A stretch of 27,045 bases of DNA from a virus. The notes beneath the pieces were generated by a model. That model worked only from the letters and a program-made list of their open reading frames with translations, searched no databases and had not been told where the DNA came from. The DNA lies in the IMG/VR virus record IMGVR_UViG_3300034284_002584, positions 1 to 27,045 of that record, one strand, 5' to 3'. This document shows, piece after piece, positions 1,956-26,032 of this stretch. The position numbers were made by a program, and so were the translations under genes. The first letter of the stretch is position 1. Each line of letters opens with the position of its first letter.

Positions 1956-2663
1956 ATGTCAATAAAAATATCTGAAATAGAAGAAATATTCAATGAAGTA
2001 TTTGAGGAAGAAAAGGGTTTAGTAAACTCAGTAGAAACTGTTTATGAAACACCTGAAGAAGATTCTGATTTTATCAAGTTAATTATTTCAATTCATGGTT
2101 TAGTTACCGAAGATGTTTCTATTATACATACTAAATTTATATTTAAGTGTGATTTAGATAAAAGAAATATTGTGGATATGTCATTTATTTACCTTTTTGA
2201 TATAAATTGTGTTTATCATAAAATGGAATTTACAAATATTTTAGATCTTAAAGGAAAAGTAGAAGATATTATTGGGTCTAATAACTTTGGACAAGATTTA
2301 CAAATTCTTTCTGACTTCATTGAAGCACCTGCTATGTTCTTAAATTATTATATGCGTAGAGCTAAAATCACTGATTATTCTATATTTGATGTTGAATATA
2401 CACCTAAGTTTAAGACAACACCATGTGATAAAACTACATTTGATTTTAAGTTTAATATAAATAATAATTATGACATGGAGTTATCTATTTCTAAAGTAGA
2501 TAGACCAAGTGATGATGAAGAAGATAATATTGATACTTATAAGTTTCAGTTCCGATTTATGGATGAGATTGAAACATTCGAATCAGATACTCTTAAAAAT
2601 TTCCACTTCTTTATTGGAAACAATATAGCTAAGATTTTAGATAAAAAACTTAAGAATAAGTAA
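1956..2663 (+). CDS. Hypothetical acidic protein (235 aa)
   Basis: No family is recognised. The protein is acidic, with stretches such as EEIFNEVFEEE near the N-terminus and PSDDEEDN near residue 187, and it has alternating hydrophobic beta-like segments. No signal peptide or membrane helix is seen. It begins 2 bases after the nucleotidyltransferase gene, and its stop codon shares bases with the start of the next gene (TAATG). Translation of this run of genes is therefore probably coupled. Confidence 0.6.
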   Translation: MSIKISEIEEIFNEVFEEEKGLVNSVETVYETPEEDSDFIKLIISIHGLVTEDVSIIHTKFIFKCDLDKRNIVDMSFIYLFDINCVYHKMEFTNILDLKGKVEDIIGSNNFGQDLQILSDFIEAPAMFLNYYMRRAKITDYSIFDVEYTPKFKTTPCDKTTFDFKFNINNNYDMELSISKVDRPSDDEEDNIDTYKFQFRFMDEIETFESDTLKNFHFFIGNNIAKILDKKLKNK

Positions 2664-3310
2664 TGAAATATCTTAGTAAATTCGTTAACTATCTAAATGA
2701 ATCTGCTGAAGATATAACTGATTTATCTAAAGAGGAATTAGAGGAGTTATTAATACCTATGTCTGATTTAGGATTAGAATATAGTTTCACAGAGCCGAGA
2801 ACTATCACATCAGGTGAATTTTCAGGATATAAATCGATGAATATTATAATTAGAAATAATTTTAAGATGGGTGAGGCTGGTGGATATACTGAACATATAA
2901 TTGATTCCAAGTTCTGGGAATTTTTAGATGAGTTGATATCACTAAAAAATCGATTACAAAGCTCTCAAGTATCTATTAATACAAATTGGAGACATCATAT
3001 TGCTGTAACATTTATACAAAAGGAAAAAGTAGAAGGTAATTTATTCACTATTCAGCAGTTATATAATGAAATGAATAAGAGAACTTCTGCTTCTAAAAGC
3101 GACTTTTCTAATGGTATGACTAAAAAATTAGATAAAGAAGAATTAAAAATCACTGTTAATTGTAATGGTTTTAGAGAGGGTTCTTATACTGATAGAAAGT
3201 GGAATGGTCTTTTTAGAGGTATAGATTTTTCTAAATTTAATGTTGATAAACAAATCACTACAGATAGTTATGGTGATAAAAGTGCTGTTATTACAATTAC
3301 TTTAAAATAA
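2663..3310 (+). CDS. Hypothetical protein with capsid-targeting-like N-terminus
   Basis: The body (215 aa) is not recognised. The first 13 residues, MKYLSKFVNYLNE, resemble the capsid-targeting sequence of T4 internal proteins (MKTYQEFIAE), which the prohead protease cuts after (I/L)-x-E. Here LNE is followed by SAED, and the same NESAED string appears after KIN in the protease-scaffold protein encoded at 9911-12037. This suggests the protein is packaged in the head and processed, as an inference. It is the last protein gene of the leading + strand unit, and the tmRNA promoter begins about 25 bases after its stop. Confidence 0.6.
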   Translation: MKYLSKFVNYLNESAEDITDLSKEELEELLIPMSDLGLEYSFTEPRTITSGEFSGYKSMNIIIRNNFKMGEAGGYTEHIIDSKFWEFLDELISLKNRLQSSQVSINTNWRHHIAVTFIQKEKVEGNLFTIQQLYNEMNKRTSASKSDFSNGMTKKLDKEELKITVNCNGFREGSYTDRKWNGLFRGIDFSKFNVDKQITTDSYGDKSAVITITLK

Positions 3311-3334: not shown

Positions 3335-3365
3335 TTTGTTTTATTGTATATTATATATACTTTTG
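3335..3365 (+). promoter_or_regulatory. Bacteroidetes-type promoter of the tmRNA gene
   Basis: TTTG at 3335-3338 and TACTTTTG at 3358-3365 match the Bacteroidetes vegetative consensus (-33 TTTG, -7 TAnnTTTG) with a 19-nt spacer, which is within the known 19-21 nt range. The tmRNA 5' end lies 18 bases further on, so a short leader would be removed, for example by host RNase P. Transcription by the unmodified host polymerase, early in infection, is inferred. A TATATATA string overlaps the -7 region. Confidence 0.75.
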
Positions 3366-3382
3366 TCACACAATAACACTAT

Positions 3383-3767
3383 GGGGATGTCATAGAATAG
3401 ATTTGCAGACTGGTGGTGATTATGCAGGTATCGGTTGGTTAAATATCCGATTAACAAATTAGGTAACAAACAATGTAAACGGCAACGTTAACGAAGTAGG
3501 AACCCGTGAAGATTTAGTAGCGGCTCTACAAAACAACATGCTCTTGGTAGAAGAGCCGGCTATGGTCTAACCACCAATAGTTGTACCAAAAATTCTCCAG
3601 TCAGAATCACACTGATTAATAAATGTGAGACAGTTTTTTGTTACTAATTAGAGTCTGTCAAAAAAAGTAACTATTTCGTTAGATTAGAAAATCTGACTAA
3701 GCCTGTGAATGAATAGTTATTAACAACTGAGAAAGACACGTTGGGCAGTACAACGTCATCTCCACTA
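3383..3767 (+). ncRNA. ssrA: tmRNA (transfer-messenger RNA)
   Basis: tmRNA, with SmpB, rescues stalled ribosomes and adds a degradation tag. The ends pair as a 7-bp acceptor stem, GGGGATG (3383-3389) with CATCTCC (3757-3763), including the G3-U70 wobble that alanyl-tRNA synthetase reads. AGATTTGCAGAC resembles the reduced D-arm of tmRNAs. A P2-like helix pairs 3431-3442 with 3720-3730 (one bulged G). An H-type pseudoknot is formed by GACAG/CTGTC (3629-3633/3655-3659) and GTTAC/GTAAC (3640-3644/3667-3671). A T-arm stem ACGTTG/CAACGT (3738-3743/3751-3756) abuts the acceptor. A strong terminator follows. Odd points: the T-loop is GGCAGTA instead of TTCRANY, the 3' end is ACTA rather than ACCA, and the open tag frame runs to TAA at 3568-3570. 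No smpB is seen in the window. Confidence 0.88.
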
Positions 3768-3770
3768 AAG

Positions 3771-3798
3771 ACCCTACTTTTGTAGGGTTTTCTTTTTT
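3771..3798 (+). terminator. Rho-independent terminator of tmRNA
   Basis: ACCCTAC (3771-3777) and GTAGGGT (3782-3788) form a perfect 7-bp stem with a TTTT loop, followed by TTTCTTTTTTT. It starts 3 bases after the tmRNA 3' end and ends the tmRNA transcript before the NADAR gene. Confidence 0.88.
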
Positions 3799-3820
3799 TA
3801 AACATTTACTACAAATTCTA

Positions 3821-3830: not shown

Positions 3831-4343
3831 ATGATTGATATCTTCCAAGGTCGTTGGTTTTTTTTGTCTAATTTCTTTCCTTGTGAGATAGAACACAAAG
3901 GTATTAAATATCCGTCTGTCGAACACTACTACGTTGCTATGAAGGTTACTGAGATTCAACTTCTTAATGGTCAATACTATACTGCTGGTGATTTCAGAGA
4001 ACTAATAGCCAAGGTAAAACTACCAGCAGATGTAAAAAAAATTGGACAAAAGATAAAAGTAAGAAGAGATTGGGAAGAGAAAAAATTAGAATTTATGAAT
4101 TGGGGTGTTAGAGAAAAGTTTAAGAATGAAAAATTATCTGAATTACTTTTATTAACAGCTGATTTAGAAATTGTGGAAAATAATTACTGGCATGATAATT
4201 TTTGGGGAAGTTGCACTTGTAGTAGGTGTGGAAGAAAAGGTGAAAACAATTTAGGAAAGATTCTAATGAGTGTTAGACAGGAATTAAAACAACAAAGAGG
4301 AAAATCCTCAATAGAAGATATAATTAAAAACAAAAACAATTAA
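3831..4343 (+). CDS. NADAR (YbiA-like) domain protein
   Basis: This 170-aa protein is a full NADAR domain. It has RWFFLSNFFP (8-17), the YPSVEHYYVAMK block (27-38) with the conserved glutamate E31, and the closing NNLGKILMSVRQEL block after HDNFWG. NADAR proteins are N-glycosidases acting on ADP-ribose-linked or riboflavin-pathway substrates. Some remove ADP-ribose from guanine in DNA and neutralise DarT-type toxins. A short CTCSRCG insertion, which could bind metal, sits where many relatives have a glycine loop. The next gene, a DNA adenine methylase, starts 3 bases after the stop, so a role in DNA base repair or defence evasion is a reasonable inference. Confidence 0.8.
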   Translation: MIDIFQGRWFFLSNFFPCEIEHKGIKYPSVEHYYVAMKVTEIQLLNGQYYTAGDFRELIAKVKLPADVKKIGQKIKVRRDWEEKKLEFMNWGVREKFKNEKLSELLLLTADLEIVENNYWHDNFWGSCTCSRCGRKGENNLGKILMSVRQELKQQRGKSSIEDIIKNKNN

Positions 4344-4346
4344 GAA

Positions 4347-5291
4347 ATGAGTGTTATAAGTTACTTTGGAGGAAAATCCTCTAACATCTTTATCGAGTTT
4401 ATTAACTCAAAAATTCCAAAGACTGGAATCAAAACATACTTAGAGCCTTTCTCTGGATCTATGGGAACGTATATGGACGACGATTCTCTTAAATTCGATA
4501 CAGTTATCTATAATGATAAAAATCGTCACCAGGTGAACTTATATAAGTGTTGTTCAGAACCTGAAACTTTTGTTAAATACTTAGAAAGATTAAAAGAAAC
4601 CTTATTAAAAACTGATGAGACAGATCCACTGAAAAAGTGGGACTTCTATAAAGGAATTTATAAGAAATATCAAAAGAATGAATTTCTTGATAATATGGAC
4701 TTTGAGATTGGTAACTTTGGAAAAGCTGCAATTTATGCTTTCTTAATCACATCAGCTCATAACTCGGTATATCCTCGTGGTGCTGGTTTTAATGGTTATA
4801 AAAAAGATAAAGATAAACTTAAACTTGATGTACTAATTGATAAATTAAAAAAGAATAAATATACTTCTAAGTTAAAGTCAATTACTGAGTTTTATAATAT
4901 TGATTTTGAGGAATTAATTACAAACTATGATTCGGAAGATACTTATCTTTATTTAGATCCACCATATGCTAGATTTAATGAGGGAAAAGGAGAAGATGAT
5001 GCTAAAAGACTTTTCTGGTATGGCGCTGATACTGATGGTGTGTTTGGACCAGCTTCACATAGAAGACTTTTAGAATTGTTAAAAACTACTAAATGTCGTT
5101 GGTCTCTTTCTTATTATTATTTTCCTTTACTTGAAGAGTTATTACCTAAGGATAAATACGTATGGACTGAAAAAGAGGTTTTTAGAAGCTCTGCACAGGG
5201 TGGTAATAATTCAGATACAAAGAAAGAACAAGCTAAAGGTGTTGAGTTATTAATTATGAATTACGATCCTCTTACTGGAGAAAAGATTTAA
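4347..5291 (+). CDS. dam: Dam-type DNA adenine N6-methyltransferase
   Basis: The 314-aa protein is a D12-class adenine methyltransferase, the family of E. coli and T4 Dam. YFGGKSS (6-12) is the N-terminal K-containing motif. LEPFSGSMG (32-40) is SAM-binding motif I, where F-x-G is usual. YLDPPYARF (202-210) is catalytic motif IV, DPPY. A helical target-recognition region lies between motifs I and IV. Near the end, SSAQGGNNSDTKK is followed by VELLIMNYD, as in the family C-terminus. It probably methylates phage DNA, often at GATC, to avoid host restriction; the recognition site cannot be read from the sequence. It is co-transcribed with the NADAR gene upstream and a small hypothetical 9 bases downstream. 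Confidence 0.9.
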   Translation: MSVISYFGGKSSNIFIEFINSKIPKTGIKTYLEPFSGSMGTYMDDDSLKFDTVIYNDKNRHQVNLYKCCSEPETFVKYLERLKETLLKTDETDPLKKWDFYKGIYKKYQKNEFLDNMDFEIGNFGKAAIYAFLITSAHNSVYPRGAGFNGYKKDKDKLKLDVLIDKLKKNKYTSKLKSITEFYNIDFEELITNYDSEDTYLYLDPPYARFNEGKGEDDAKRLFWYGADTDGVFGPASHRRLLELLKTTKCRWSLSYYYFPLLEELLPKDKYVWTEKEVFRSSAQGGNNSDTKKEQAKGVELLIMNYDPLTGEKI

Positions 5292-7650: not shown

Positions 7651-8040
7651 TTAAATAGTAATTTCTTCGGAATTATTATAATCTACCTTAACTTGACCAT
7701 CATTCATATTTGGTTCTTTCTTTACAAATTTAGTTTGACAATAAACTACTGTAACATTATCAATTTTGTTAGCTTTGGAATTTCTTTTAGCTAGTTCTGC
7801 TGCGAATCTAATTACTTCTGGTGTAGGTAAGTTCTCTCTCACTCTAATAACAACATGACTACCAGGAGAACCTTTTACATGCATCCAAATATCTTCTTTA
7901 TCTGCTGTATTAAATGTAAGATAGTCATTGGATTTTGCGTCTTTGCCGATAAAAATTGTATATCCAAAGAATTCTTTTTTCTGAATATTTGGAAATTTAT
8001 CCTTTTTTGATTCGTTGTAAGATTTGTAGTTCTTTATCAT
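7651..8040 (-). CDS. Stand-alone NFACT-R (DUF814) domain protein
   Basis: Residues 20-125 match the NFACT-R domain at the C-terminus of RqcH/NEMF/Tae2: GYTIFIGKDAKSNDYLTF (the family's VGR-N-x-x-N-D-x-L block), then DIWMHVKGSPGSHVVIR (the D-x-W-x-H...G-S-H-V signature), a helix AAELAKRNSKAN, and VTVVYCQTKFVKK. Full RqcH proteins exceed 500 residues; this one has 129 and lacks the NFACT-N, HhH and coiled-coil regions that contact the 50S subunit and peptidyl-tRNA. The first residues, MIKNYKSYNE before SKKD, resemble a capsid-targeting peptide. The domain call is strong. A role in ribosome quality control is an inference, as small free NFACT-R proteins have little functional description. Confidence 0.82.
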   Translation of the reverse strand: MIKNYKSYNESKKDKFPNIQKKEFFGYTIFIGKDAKSNDYLTFNTADKEDIWMHVKGSPGSHVVIRVRENLPTPEVIRFAAELAKRNSKANKIDNVTVVYCQTKFVKKEPNMNDGQVKVDYNNSEEITI

Positions 8041-12616: not shown

Positions 12617-14494
12617 ATGATTCAATTTATAGAAGGAGAATTCTATACTGGACAGATAGAATTCTCAAACAATGGAAATGCATCCATTAATATTAACGGC
12701 AAAGAAATATTCATTCATAGAAAAAATACTTCAACCTCTTTACATTTAGATACTGTAAGAATTCAATTATTCAAAGGTGAAAGAAAAATAGAAGGTAAAG
12801 TAGTAGAAGTTTTAACAAGATTCAAAAAAGAATATGTTGGTCGTGTCCAAAAAGGAAAAAAATCCACATTCGTAGTTCCCGATAGTATTAAAATACCAGT
12901 TGATTTTTATATCAAAGGTGGTCTAATCGCTGAAGATGGTCAAAAAGTAATTGTTGAGTTAACAAAGTGGGAAGATACTAAATCACCACAAGGTAAAATC
13001 ACAAAAGTATTAGGTAACTCTGGTGATAATAACACCGAAATGAATTCAATTATGTTTGAGTATGGTTTGCCTGTGGATTTTCCACAAGAAGTAATCAATG
13101 AGTCAGAGTTAATATCTGAAGTTATTTTTGACAAAGAAATTTCTAATAGACGTGATATAAGAGATATTACTACATTTACAATTGATCCAGTTGATGCTCG
13201 TGACTTTGATGATGCTTTATCTGTCAATATTCTATCAGAAAATAAATTTGAGATAGGTGTTCATATAGCCGATGTAGGTCATTATGTTAAACCAGGAACT
13301 AAGTTAGATGATGAGGCTTTTAAGAGAGCGACATCTGTTTATTTAGTAGACAGATGTGTTCCTATGTTACCTGAAAGATTGAGTAATGGTATATGTTCAT
13401 TGAAACCAAATGAAGATAGATTAGCATTCTCTGTTATCTTCACAATTAATAATGAAGGTAAGATTTTAGATACGTGGTATGGTAAAACTGTAATTCACTC
13501 TGATAGAAGATACTCTTACGAAGAAGCTCAAGAGATAATTGAAGGAGTTGATGGTGATTATTCAACTGAAGTAAGACTACTTAATACATTAGCTCAGAAA
13601 ATTCGTAAGAAAAGAATCACTGATGGATCTATTGAAATGGGTGGTATTGAAGTAAGGTTTAAGTTAGCTGAAGATAATAAAAAACCAATCGGAGTTTATT
13701 TCAAGTATCAAAAAGAATCAAATAAACTTATTGAAGAGTTTATGTTATTGGCAAATAAATCAGTAGCTAAACTTCTTTCTGATTCTCAGTGGTTTAATGT
13801 GTATAGAGTACATGATACTCCTAATATGGAAAAACTTCAACAATTAGTAAATGTTTGTAATAATTTTGGACATGATGTTAAGATTGAAGGTGAAGGTGAT
13901 GAGTTAAAGAAATCTATTAATCAGTTATTAAAAGATATTAAAGGTTCTCCTGAAGAGAATATGATAGAAACATTAGTAACTCGTTGTATGTCTAAAGCGA
14001 CATACACTATTAAGAACATTGGCCACTATGGTTTAGGATTTACTCACTATTCTCACTTTACTTCTCCGATAAGAAGATATCCGGATTTAATTACACATAG
14101 AATATTGTTTGATTTTCTCAACAAAGCTAAGCAAGGTAATCCCGGTAAAATTGAAGAACAATCAAAATGGTGTTCAACAAGAGAATTAGTAGCAGCAAAG
14201 GCTCAAAGAGATTCTATAAAGTATAAGCAAGCTGAGTACCTACAAGATAAGTTAGGTAGTGTGTTTGATGGATTGATATCCGGTGTAACTGAGTGGGGTA
14301 TTTATGTTGAACTTATTGAAAGTAAATGTGAAGGTCTTATTAGATTTCAAGATATGGGTAAGATAAAGGTTGATGTCGAGCACTATACTGTTACTGATCA
14401 ATTAGGTAATAAGATTAGATTGGGTGACCAAATCAAAGTTGTGGTAAAAGGTGTGGATTTAGAGAAAAAACAAGTCGATTTTAGTTTATTCTAA
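12617..14494 (+). CDS. rnr: RNase R/RNase II-family 3'-5' exoribonuclease
   Basis: The 625-aa protein has the RNase R layout. Two OB-fold cold-shock-like domains occupy about residues 1-135 (GQIEFSNNGNASINING; EYVGRVQKGKK). The RNB catalytic domain begins near 180 with TIDPVDARDFDDALS, holding the metal-binding aspartates at 190-199, then HIADVGHYVKPG, RATSVYLVDRCVPMLPERL and GICSLKPNEDRLAFSV. HYSHFTSPIRRYPDLITHR is the conserved late RNB block. A C-terminal S1 domain (VFDGLISGVTEWGIYVEL, from about 547) ends the protein. Bacterial RNase R is 700-820 aa with helix-turn-helix and basic-tail extensions, which are absent here. It degrades structured RNA and, with tmRNA-SmpB, non-stop mRNA. It starts 12 bases after the truncated gene and overlaps the next by one base. 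Confidence 0.93.
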   Translation: MIQFIEGEFYTGQIEFSNNGNASININGKEIFIHRKNTSTSLHLDTVRIQLFKGERKIEGKVVEVLTRFKKEYVGRVQKGKKSTFVVPDSIKIPVDFYIKGGLIAEDGQKVIVELTKWEDTKSPQGKITKVLGNSGDNNTEMNSIMFEYGLPVDFPQEVINESELISEVIFDKEISNRRDIRDITTFTIDPVDARDFDDALSVNILSENKFEIGVHIADVGHYVKPGTKLDDEAFKRATSVYLVDRCVPMLPERLSNGICSLKPNEDRLAFSVIFTINNEGKILDTWYGKTVIHSDRRYSYEEAQEIIEGVDGDYSTEVRLLNTLAQKIRKKRITDGSIEMGGIEVRFKLAEDNKKPIGVYFKYQKESNKLIEEFMLLANKSVAKLLSDSQWFNVYRVHDTPNMEKLQQLVNVCNNFGHDVKIEGEGDELKKSINQLLKDIKGSPEENMIETLVTRCMSKATYTIKNIGHYGLGFTHYSHFTSPIRRYPDLITHRILFDFLNKAKQGNPGKIEEQSKWCSTRELVAAKAQRDSIKYKQAEYLQDKLGSVFDGLISGVTEWGIYVELIESKCEGLIRFQDMGKIKVDVEHYTVTDQLGNKIRLGDQIKVVVKGVDLEKKQVDFSLF

Positions 14495-19066: not shown

Positions 19067-20158
19067 ATGAAAATTAAACAAGAGTATATTTGGTTAGATG
19101 GGTCTGAACCCCAACAACTCAGAAGTAAAACTAAAATTGTTAATGAATCTATTGGATTAGATAACAATCCTGAACACTATTCGATGTGGTCTTTTGATGG
19201 TAGTTCTACATTACAAGCTAAATCTGGTAAAGGAGAAAATACAGATTGTCTATTGAAACCAGTTTTTGTTGTAAATGATCCTTTTAGAGGTTCTGCACAT
19301 AAGCTTGTTCTTTGTGAAGTTTTAAATCCTGATGGTACGCCACATATAACTAATCACCGAAGAAAACTCGCTGAGACTGTTAAAGAACTTTCTTTAGATT
19401 CTCTTACTAAAAGTGAGGCTCCGTGGTTTGGTTGGGAACAAGAATATACACTTACTCATAAGCCTAATATGCCATTTGGTGAGGGTATTGGATTACCACT
19501 TGGATTTAGTTTAGATTCATCTAATAATCCAAGACCACAAGGTGATTATTATTGTGGTATTGGTGCTGATACTGTAATTGGTCGAGAAATCGTTGAAGAA
19601 CACATGAATATGTGTATGGAAATTGGTTTAGATATTTCTGGAGTTAATGCTGAAGTTCTTCTTGGACAATGGGAATATCAAATTGGACCAGTGACTTCAC
19701 TAAATGGTTCAGACCAATTGTGGATGTCTCGTTATATCTTACAAAGAGTTGCTGAGAAACACAGTGTTAATGTTTCTTTACATCCAAAACCACTTAAGGG
19801 TGATTGGAATGGCACAGGTTGTCACGTTAATTTCTCTTCAAGTGAAATGAGAAAAGAAGGTGGTATTGATATTATTATGGAGTCAATGTCTAAATTAGAG
19901 TCAAATCACATGGAACATATTGATGTTTATGGTTTACATAACGAACAAAGATTGACTGGAGCTCACGAGACATCAGGTATTCATGAGTTTAGTTATGGTT
20001 TTTCTACAAGAGATACTTCGATTAGAATTCCTGCTCAGGCTCAAGTAGATGGTTGTGGATATTTTGAGGATAGAAGACCAGCGTCTAACTGTGACCCTTA
20101 TTTAGTTTCTGATAGAATGTTACAAACTATTTATAGTGAAGTCGAAACTGAGGCTTAA
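19067..20158 (+). CDS. glnII: Glutamine synthetase, type II (eukaryotic-type)
   Basis: This 363-aa protein is a full-length GSII, which makes glutamine from glutamate, ammonia and ATP as a decamer. Family blocks in order: YIWLDGSEPQQLRSKTKIV (beta-grasp region), SMWSFDGSST, the PVFVVNDPFR segment, PWFGWEQEYTL with the metal-binding glutamates, GDYYCGIGAD, NAEVLLGQWEYQIGP, KGDWNGTGCHVNFS, NEQRLTGAHET, TRDTSIRIP and FEDRRPASNCDPY. All key residues that I can check are present, so it is probably active. It stands alone on the plus strand between minus-strand genes, with a terminator close behind. It probably raises glutamine supply for nucleotide synthesis in infection; this is inference. Type I (GlnA, about 470 aa) is excluded by length and motifs. 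Confidence 0.95.
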   Translation: MKIKQEYIWLDGSEPQQLRSKTKIVNESIGLDNNPEHYSMWSFDGSSTLQAKSGKGENTDCLLKPVFVVNDPFRGSAHKLVLCEVLNPDGTPHITNHRRKLAETVKELSLDSLTKSEAPWFGWEQEYTLTHKPNMPFGEGIGLPLGFSLDSSNNPRPQGDYYCGIGADTVIGREIVEEHMNMCMEIGLDISGVNAEVLLGQWEYQIGPVTSLNGSDQLWMSRYILQRVAEKHSVNVSLHPKPLKGDWNGTGCHVNFSSSEMRKEGGIDIIMESMSKLESNHMEHIDVYGLHNEQRLTGAHETSGIHEFSYGFSTRDTSIRIPAQAQVDGCGYFEDRRPASNCDPYLVSDRMLQTIYSEVETEA

Positions 20159-25339: not shown

Positions 25340-26032
25340 TTAAGCTGGAAGTTCTTCTTCGCCTTCTTCCTCTTCTTCTTGGCCTTGAGCTTGTCCCTGA
25401 CCTTGAGCTTGTCCCTGACCTTGAGCTTGTCCCTGACCTTGAGCTTGTCCCTGACCTTGTCCCTGATCTTGAGCTTGTCCCTGACCTTGAGCTTGTCCCT
25501 GACCTTGTCCCTGATCTTGAGCTTGTCCCTGACCTTGAGGTTCTTCAAATTGGCCTTCTTGAGCTTGTCCTTGTGGTTGAGCTTGTCCTTGTGGTTGAGC
25601 TTGTCCTTGTGGTTGAGCTTGTCCTTGTGATTGAGCTTGTTCTTGACCTTCTTGACCTTCTTGTGCTTGTCCTTGTGGTTGAGCTTCAACTTGAACTTGT
25701 GGTTGAGTTTGTGCTTGACCTTCTGGTTGAGTTTGTGCTTGACCTTGTGGACCACCCATTATAGCGTTTCCTGGAATTTTATCAACATCCAGATTGTTCA
25801 TGTTAATATATTTAATGATTTCTTCAGCGATATCAACATCACCAAAAAACTGACGTAAATTTTTACCAGTATCGTCTTTAACTTTTTTAACGTACGCATT
25901 AATCAACGACTGAGGAATATCAATCATTGTTTTAACTTTGTATATATCGTTCACCTGTAAAACAGACTCTCTAATTATATCTTCTCTGTTTTTCTTTAGA
26001 CGATAATTTTCAAATGTTCTAATATGCTTCAT
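25340..26032 (-). CDS. Q/G/A-repeat protein with capsid-targeting-like N-terminus
   Basis: The 230-aa protein begins MKHIRTFENY, close to the MRFIRTFESY of the neighbouring hydrolase. Residues 1-90 form a helical domain (NDIYKVKTMIDIPQSLIN, DDTGKNLRQFFGDVDIAEEI). From about 93 to 222 it is a low-complexity tract of GQAQ, PQGQAQ and GQGQAQ units. It then ends in an acidic cluster (EEEEEGEEELPA). I do not recognise the folded part. The start peptide and the presence of a TATATA element with standard spacing suggest a head-associated or packaged protein, possibly scaffold-like. Opposite-strand and shifted frames through the repeat are open only because of the repeat. Confidence 0.7.
   Translation of the reverse strand: MKHIRTFENYRLKKNREDIIRESVLQVNDIYKVKTMIDIPQSLINAYVKKVKDDTGKNLRQFFGDVDIAEEIIKYINMNNLDVDKIPGNAIMGGPQGQAQTQPEGQAQTQPQVQVEAQPQGQAQEGQEGQEQAQSQGQAQPQGQAQPQGQAQPQGQAQEGQFEEPQGQGQAQDQGQGQGQAQGQGQAQDQGQGQGQAQGQGQAQGQGQAQGQGQAQGQEEEEEGEEELPA
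25373..25748 (-). repeat. Tandem coding repeats of 9-18 bp (GQAQ-type)
   Basis: The tract consists of near-identical 18-bp units (TTGAGCTTGTCCCTGACC on the plus strand), with 30-bp compound units in the middle and 15-18-bp units (TTGAGCTTGTCCTTGTGG) further on. They encode GQGQAQ and PQGQAQ. Several copies are exact, which points to recent expansion by slippage or unequal recombination. Confidence 0.88.

Follow-up and report, generated by a model that had tools for sequence, protein, structure and literature searches.

A genuine, highly divergent tmRNA gene (ssrA) very probably lies at positions 3383–3767 of the DNA analyzed here, a fragment from a huge phage that probably infects Bacteroidetes, and the RNA would act with a phage-encoded SmpB. 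tmRNA frees stuck ribosomes and tags unfinished proteins. Comparison of homologous sequences establishes the architecture of the RNA, coding selection on its tag and the co-occurrence of the genes concerned. The gene had been proposed in an initial annotation made from the letters of the sequence; the tag reading frame, a non-standard T-loop and an RNase R gene on the same fragment go beyond that description.

Source of the sequence and its relatives

The window, meaning the whole stretch of DNA that was analyzed (27,045 nt), comes from a huge phage and is a linear fragment in IMG/VR, 27 kb long. Its major head protein shares 74–75% identity with the counterparts in LR745206 (634,780 bp) and LR756502 (642,428 bp), and genomes of such size and kind are placed in the Mahaphage clade, with predicted Bacteroidetes hosts (PMC7162821). 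Between the genes at 2663–3310 and 3831–4343 lies a gap of 520 bases in which neither strand is coding, except for short chance ORFs; it is 81% identical to the corresponding sequence of LR745206 and 75% to that of LR756502. Compensatory changes were already visible in the three-way alignment of these sequences, with A-U replaced by G-C in the acceptor, and the T-arm changing from ACGTTG/CAACGT to ACGATG/CATCGT and ACCGGG/CCTGGT.

Homologues were collected by a pattern scan and a head-protein scan in IMG/VR, and by a profile search (nhmmer profile built from three sequences); together these yielded 71 matching loci, representing 53 distinct sequences. The tmRNA family set comprises 48 full-length copies, 40 of which were left once near-copies had been removed; these form the 40-row alignment (A2) used below, a count that includes two misaligned rows (L029 and L035) whose effect is only to lower the support. 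Where a locus was retrieved by way of its head protein, the RNA is mostly found about 2.4 to 6.5 kb past the head gene. The initial annotation described phage-borne copies as uncommon, which is correct in general and does not apply here, where most loci with enough flanking sequence carry the phage tmRNA. A relative with a head protein of 70% identity (L087) has no copy of the RNA nearby, in about 10 kb on each side, so the position or presence of the tmRNA varies.

Directly 3' of the tmRNA, the window encodes a NADAR-domain protein (PF08719; 3831–4343, + strand), followed by a D12-class adenine methyltransferase (4347–5291). A glutamine synthetase-like protein (PF00120, E = 2.7e-16) is found at 19067–20158 (+ strand), and the protein at 25340–26032 (− strand) has a long, low-complexity Q/G-rich repeat (QGQAQ).

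RNA architecture and covariation

The features of the gene and its flanks, with the evidence for each, are as follows:

3358–3365, + strand: TAnnTTTG box (TACTTTTG), presumed Bacteroidetes-type −7 promoter element (sequence)
3383–3767, + strand: tmRNA gene (ssrA), from the mature 5' end to the encoded ACTA 3' end (covariation in 40 homologues; RF00023 end to end in two members)
3383–3389, + strand: 5' strand of acceptor stem P1, GGGGATG, third pair G-U (98.9% of cells paired)
3390–3405, + strand: D-loop-like segment without a D stem, ATGGATTCG in some members and close to the canonical TGGATTCGAC (alignment; Rfam alignment of L061 and L053)
3402–3429, + strand: 5' strands of P2 (3402–3408 and 3414–3429), pairing with 3701–3734 (91.7–99.6% paired)
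3430–3467, + strand: pseudoknot PK1, with crossing stems 1 (3430–3434/3447–3451) and 2 (3438–3441/3464–3467)
3481–3570, + strand: tag frame GNVNEVGTREDLVAALQNNMLLVEEPAMV and stop TAA, with the probable resume codon GGC at 3481 (comparative)
3497–3528, + strand: hairpin inside the tag coding region (97.5% and 95.6% paired; five double-change pairs)
3607–3628, + strand: stem UCAC/GUGA beyond the 3' end of the tag frame (98.1% paired; double changes at each of the four pairs)
3628–3674, + strand: 3' H-type pseudoknot whose linker is A-rich (in an 18-member subgroup 86.1% of cells pair, versus 41–57% for slid controls)
3680–3695, + strand: hairpin just 5' of the P2 3' strand (95.4% paired; four double-change pairs)
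3696–3734, + strand: CTAAGCCTGTGAATGAATAG motif and 3' strands of P2, resembling tmRNA ACUAAGCAUGUAG (RF00023 alignment of L061 and L053)
3738–3756, + strand: T-arm, 6-bp stem (3738–3743/3751–3756) and 7-nt loop GGCAGTA, not TTCRANN (covariation)
3757–3767, + strand: 3' strand of the acceptor, CATCTCC (3757–3763), then ACTA; CCA not encoded (sequence)
3769–3799, + strand: intrinsic terminator, stem and T-run (sequence)

A 62-pair structure that includes the PK1 crossing, and was partly chosen on the same 40-row alignment used to test it, had 97.0% of its cells paired across the 40 homologues against 86% in shuffles, and pairing dropped to 36–48% when partners were slid by 1 to 3 columns. Double changes were found at 39 of these pairs, compared with 23.4 ± 2.2 in shuffles (0/500), and none of the 500 shuffles reached any of the five structure measures. 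RNAalifold, run on the 40 rows, returned 52 pairs, 31 of them with double changes, while an unguided scan of all possible helices put the T-arm at the top, followed by the outer part of P2, a tag hairpin and, in fourth place, PK1 stem 2.

Among the individual elements, the 7-bp acceptor has double changes at pairs 5 and 6, and its G3-U70 pair is kept in 39 of 40 homologues, the other having A-U. Thirteen of the 22 pairs of P2 show double changes, and the portion of this helix at 3414–3429/3701–3722 contains one bulge. Stem 1 of PK1 is 100% paired (2 double-change pairs) and stem 2 is 93.8% paired (4 double-change pairs), while the T-arm is 98.3% paired with double changes at five of its six pairs. 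These results bear out the initial annotation, which had proposed the acceptor with its G3-U70 pair, a D-arm-like segment, a P2-like helix with a single bulge, an H-type pseudoknot with an A-rich linker and a T-arm beside the acceptor. The ends it gave are exact, as judged from covariation and from the RF00023 ends in two relatives. Of the pseudoknots 3' of the tag, pairing across the 18-member subgroup supports at least one of the H type, the usual tmRNA total being four.

The T-loop reads GGCRGTR in most of the family, GTCAGTK in two members and ATCGAAG in one. By our own alignment, GGCRGTR would keep C56 and R57 of the standard loop, and TTCRANN is regarded here as typical of tmRNA sequences without being required for membership. 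Two members, L061 and L053, are nearer to the standard in both the D-loop (ATGGATTCG) and the T-loop (GTCAGTG). The encoded 3' ends of the family are ACAA (35 copies), ACTA (10) and ACCA (3).

Detection by standard tools

The initial annotation suggested running ARAGORN and the Rfam models over the region, and at curated cut-offs neither made a tmRNA call on the window. ARAGORN reported no gene there and detected 0 of 48 family members, a miss counted here as a limit of the tool and not as a biological criterion; Rfam at gathering cut-offs gave no tmRNA match for the window or the members tested. In a permissive Rfam scan of the gap the matches were at chance level, the sole one from the tmRNA clan scoring 8 bits. 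RF00023 spans L061 and L053 end to end (model positions 1–374), with the same ends as those derived from covariation, and scores 33.4 bits (E = 4.5e-13) and 32.8 bits (E = 1.6e-12) per record, or E values of about 2e-10 and 4e-10 in the all-Rfam scan. The family is overlooked by Rfam because these scores fall below the curated gathering cut-off of 47 bits, which is a detection threshold and not a biological criterion. The window itself matches no tmRNA model, and its tie to the Rfam tmRNA model runs through these relatives with sub-threshold scores.

The minimum-energy fold of the gap closes the acceptor and the T-arm, and the folding energy of the single sequence has a z-score of −1.53, with 8 of 100 shuffles equally good. 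Such single-sequence evidence (no model match, and an energy 1.5 sd below shuffles) is weak, so the claim of a tmRNA is unable to stand on the window alone; the evidence that raises it above chance is comparative. The initial annotation was to be abandoned if there were neither a model hit above threshold nor covariation across related phages: the former was indeed lacking at threshold, whereas covariation is clearly present.

Tag reading frame

A frame for a tag of 27–30 aa is open in all 48 copies, which encode 34 distinct tags with V (28 copies) or A (20 copies) as the last residue. In most copies there is an in-frame stop upstream, followed by no ATG, GTG or TTG before the resume codon, so ordinary initiation would be unable to read the frame. 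Codon comparison across the copies demonstrates that the tag is under coding selection: insertions and deletions span 3 or 6 bases, differences are more frequent at third codon positions (0.353 versus 0.254 and 0.242), and of the codon differences that involve a single base, 47% are synonymous where chance would give 24%. The tags end in ATV, ELV, VVA or AMV, not LAA, and their action as a classical ClpXP degron is therefore uncertain.

Promoter and terminator

Both flanking signals proposed in the initial annotation recur across the family. The TAnnTTTG box, the Bacteroidetes −7 promoter element, occurs in the 60 nt that precede the gene in 31 of 48 copies, compared with 2.5 expected from shuffles, and a terminator-like hairpin is present 3' of 44 of 48 copies (1.4 expected).

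SmpB, RNase R and other possible partners

Genes for SmpB are present in LR745206, LR756502, LR756504 and LR756501, as well as in contigs G001 (385 kb) and G013 (118 kb), both of which carry the phage tmRNA. All six proteins score above the equivalog cut-off (TIGR00086). The GKKxx[DN]K[RK] motif is retained in them, as is a C-terminal tail, though a shorter one than that of E. coli SmpB. No smpB was found in the 27-kb window, and the initial annotation had concluded that host SmpB would have to be used; the complete relatives LR745206 and LR756502 and the two long contigs, all with the RNA and with smpB, do not support this conclusion. Nor was smpB found in 24 of 26 partial contigs, an absence that means little because the gene lies about 128 kb from the tmRNA in LR745206 and 136 kb in LR756502. 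The phage from which the window derives, represented here by a 27-kb fragment, would be expected from its relatives to encode SmpB as well. LR745206 and LR756502 have one copy each of the RNA, and no second, canonical tmRNA, which would have weakened the present reading, was found above cut-off in either, the sub-threshold matches being no longer than a tRNA gene.

The SmpB tree places the four proteins whose phages have the RNA in a separate clade (SH-aLRT 99), borne on a long stem and apart from Bacteroidota; those of LR756504 and LR756501, phages with other tmRNAs, fall among Bacteroidota. Since many branches are weak (41 of 81 inner branches are open), only the 99% phage clade is used here. 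The pattern agrees with co-inheritance of RNA and protein, and phage kinship alone could yield the same. The phage SmpBs at L095 1489–1923 and L093 1492–1926 match PHROGs family 6791 (E = 9e-43 and 1e-47), which is labelled as of unknown function and should be annotated as SmpB.

Two further genes of the window bear on the same subject:

7651–8040, − strand: stand-alone NFACT-R domain protein, adjoining the head protein gene (PF05670, E = 3.8e-17)
12617–14494, + strand: RNase R, 3'-5' exonuclease (TIGR02063 equivalog, 629.8 bits, cut-off 597.85; RNB domain E = 7e-111)

An RNB-domain protein is also present in LR745206, LR756502 and LR756504, and none was found in LR756501, LR756500 or the partial contig G001. 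RNase R is tied to trans-translation in bacteria (PMC3534368). ClpP-family genes are present in LR745206, LR756502, LR756504 and LR756500, and some might be phage proteases of another kind, such as those of the prohead. Lon was ruled out as the reader of the long tag, as none was found in the six records searched. NFACT-R is the RNA-binding domain of RqcH-type ribosome quality control and rescue factors, and the protein in the window is a possible accessory in the same rescue theme.

tmRNAs in other huge phages

In LR756500, a 462-kb relative, the tmRNA is canonical (95.5 bits), and a search for smpB found none. The tmRNA of LR756504 (L097 1501–1857, − strand) is matched by Rfam at 65 bits and missed by ARAGORN; its long tag, read by eye, is DNVNSFEQSILNELFAPVEMAVAA, and it seems to lie between standard tmRNAs and the family of the window. 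In LR756501, a 735-kb phage, a tmRNA match of 21 bits (L101 1272–1844, − strand) is directly followed by a group I intron (96 bits) that apparently sits within the T-loop of the tmRNA. Read by eye, the 5' part of this RNA is CAGGGTTTGA and the 3' part ATCCCTGCGGGTCC, the acceptor is GGGCTCG/CGGGTCC with G3-U70, and the tag has about 33 residues, ending in VLA. Intron-type tmRNAs are known in bacteria.

Proposed mechanism and alternatives

Charging, SmpB binding, tagging and degradation are steps that we infer from the tmRNA family. The tmRNA would be transcribed from its own promoter and stopped at its own terminator, its ends would be processed and CCA added, and alanine would be loaded owing to the G3-U70 pair. 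Together with the phage-encoded SmpB, it would enter ribosomes stalled on broken mRNA; the ribosome would then switch to the resume codon near 3481, add the tag of 27–30 residues ending in A or V, and stop at TAA. This would free the ribosome and mark the tagged protein for proteolysis, while the phage RNase R, found in the window and both complete relatives, would clear the broken mRNA. A further-reaching and tentative proposal, for which we claim less than even confidence, is that tmRNA, SmpB, RNase R and perhaps ClpP form a self-contained megaphage system for trans-translation and non-stop decay, insulated from the host by the changed T-loop and the co-diverged SmpB clade, and with a long tag of its own that leads to a phage-chosen fate.

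The RNA could instead work with host SmpB and merely supplement, or compete with, the host tmRNA. Such an arrangement exists nearby, in that LR756500 has its canonical tmRNA and no detected smpB, and the window itself is without the gene; the complete relatives with the same RNA nevertheless encode SmpB at a distance, and the separate clade of the four SmpBs, apart from those of Bacteroidota, also speaks against host SmpB, which makes this unlikely. A decoy that titrates SmpB or blocks host trans-translation has been proposed for mycobacteriophage DS6A, whose RNA comprises little beyond a tRNA-like domain, and molecules of this sort are documented to inhibit tmRNA (PMC4131195; PMC11915505). 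The altered T-loop would suit that role, but a decoy has no need of a full-length RNA, a tag under coding selection, PK1 or a conserved stop, and these phages bring their own SmpB, so that the idea is quite improbable for the present family. It is harder still to believe that another structured non-coding RNA, or a small protein gene, resembles a tmRNA by chance: this would agree with the silence of ARAGORN and of Rfam at gathering level (window and members tested) and with the weak single-sequence z-score, but not with RF00023 matching relatives end to end, with covariation in acceptor, T-arm, P2 and PK1 alike, or with a tag frame that lacks start codons in most copies.

Comparison with known systems

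No description of the tmRNA family of the window was found in the literature searched, supplementary files aside, and since phage tmRNAs are already known, the family is a new subfamily within a known kind of RNA: invisible to ARAGORN, with long tags, an altered T-loop and a separate SmpB clade. It occurs in the largest known phages and escapes standard annotation tools, and surveys therefore count too few cases of viral ribosome rescue. The combination, in a single virus, of a divergent tmRNA with an SmpB of its own and an RNase R suggests host-independent upkeep of ribosomes, and rescue by the phage is perhaps useful when mRNA is cut in the course of infection by nucleases of the host or the phage. 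Questions raised are whether the tmRNA-SmpB pair is orthogonal to that of the host, what the altered T-loop does where the RNA meets SmpB, and what accounts for a tag almost three times as long as usual. The 40-row alignment could seed a new Rfam tmRNA model.

With the one-piece bacterial tmRNA (SsrA, RF00023) the family shares the G3-U70 acceptor, the lack of a D stem, the long P2, PK1 before the tag, a tag frame with its stop, 3' pseudoknot(s), the CUAAGCxUGU motif, a T-arm adjoining the acceptor, and a terminator. It differs in that the window copy is undetected by ARAGORN and RF00023, and in having GGCRGTR, not TTCRANN, as the T-loop. The tmRNA tags of Mycoplasma and Mesoplasma are about 26–27 aa, and the reader in Mesoplasma is Lon, not ClpXP; the length is similar to that found here, but no relation is shown, and the present phages have ClpP-family genes and no Lon. 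In a database of 97,179 tmRNA sequences the commonest tag length is 10 aa (PMC11915505), as against 27–30 aa here, where most tags end in ATV, ELV or VVA.

tmRNA genes on phage genomes were already known from mycobacteriophage Bxz1 and its relatives and from Bacillus phage G (PMC4131195). Those RNAs are found by standard tools, whereas the family described here is set apart by its long tag, its altered T-loop and, in the complete relatives, a phage SmpB. Both tmRNAs and SmpB have been mentioned among the translation genes of huge phages (Al-Shayeb 2020, PMC7162821), a set that includes the same phage group, the Mahaphage clade having the largest genomes; the tmRNAs of that study were called with ARAGORN, the program that detects none of the members of the present family.
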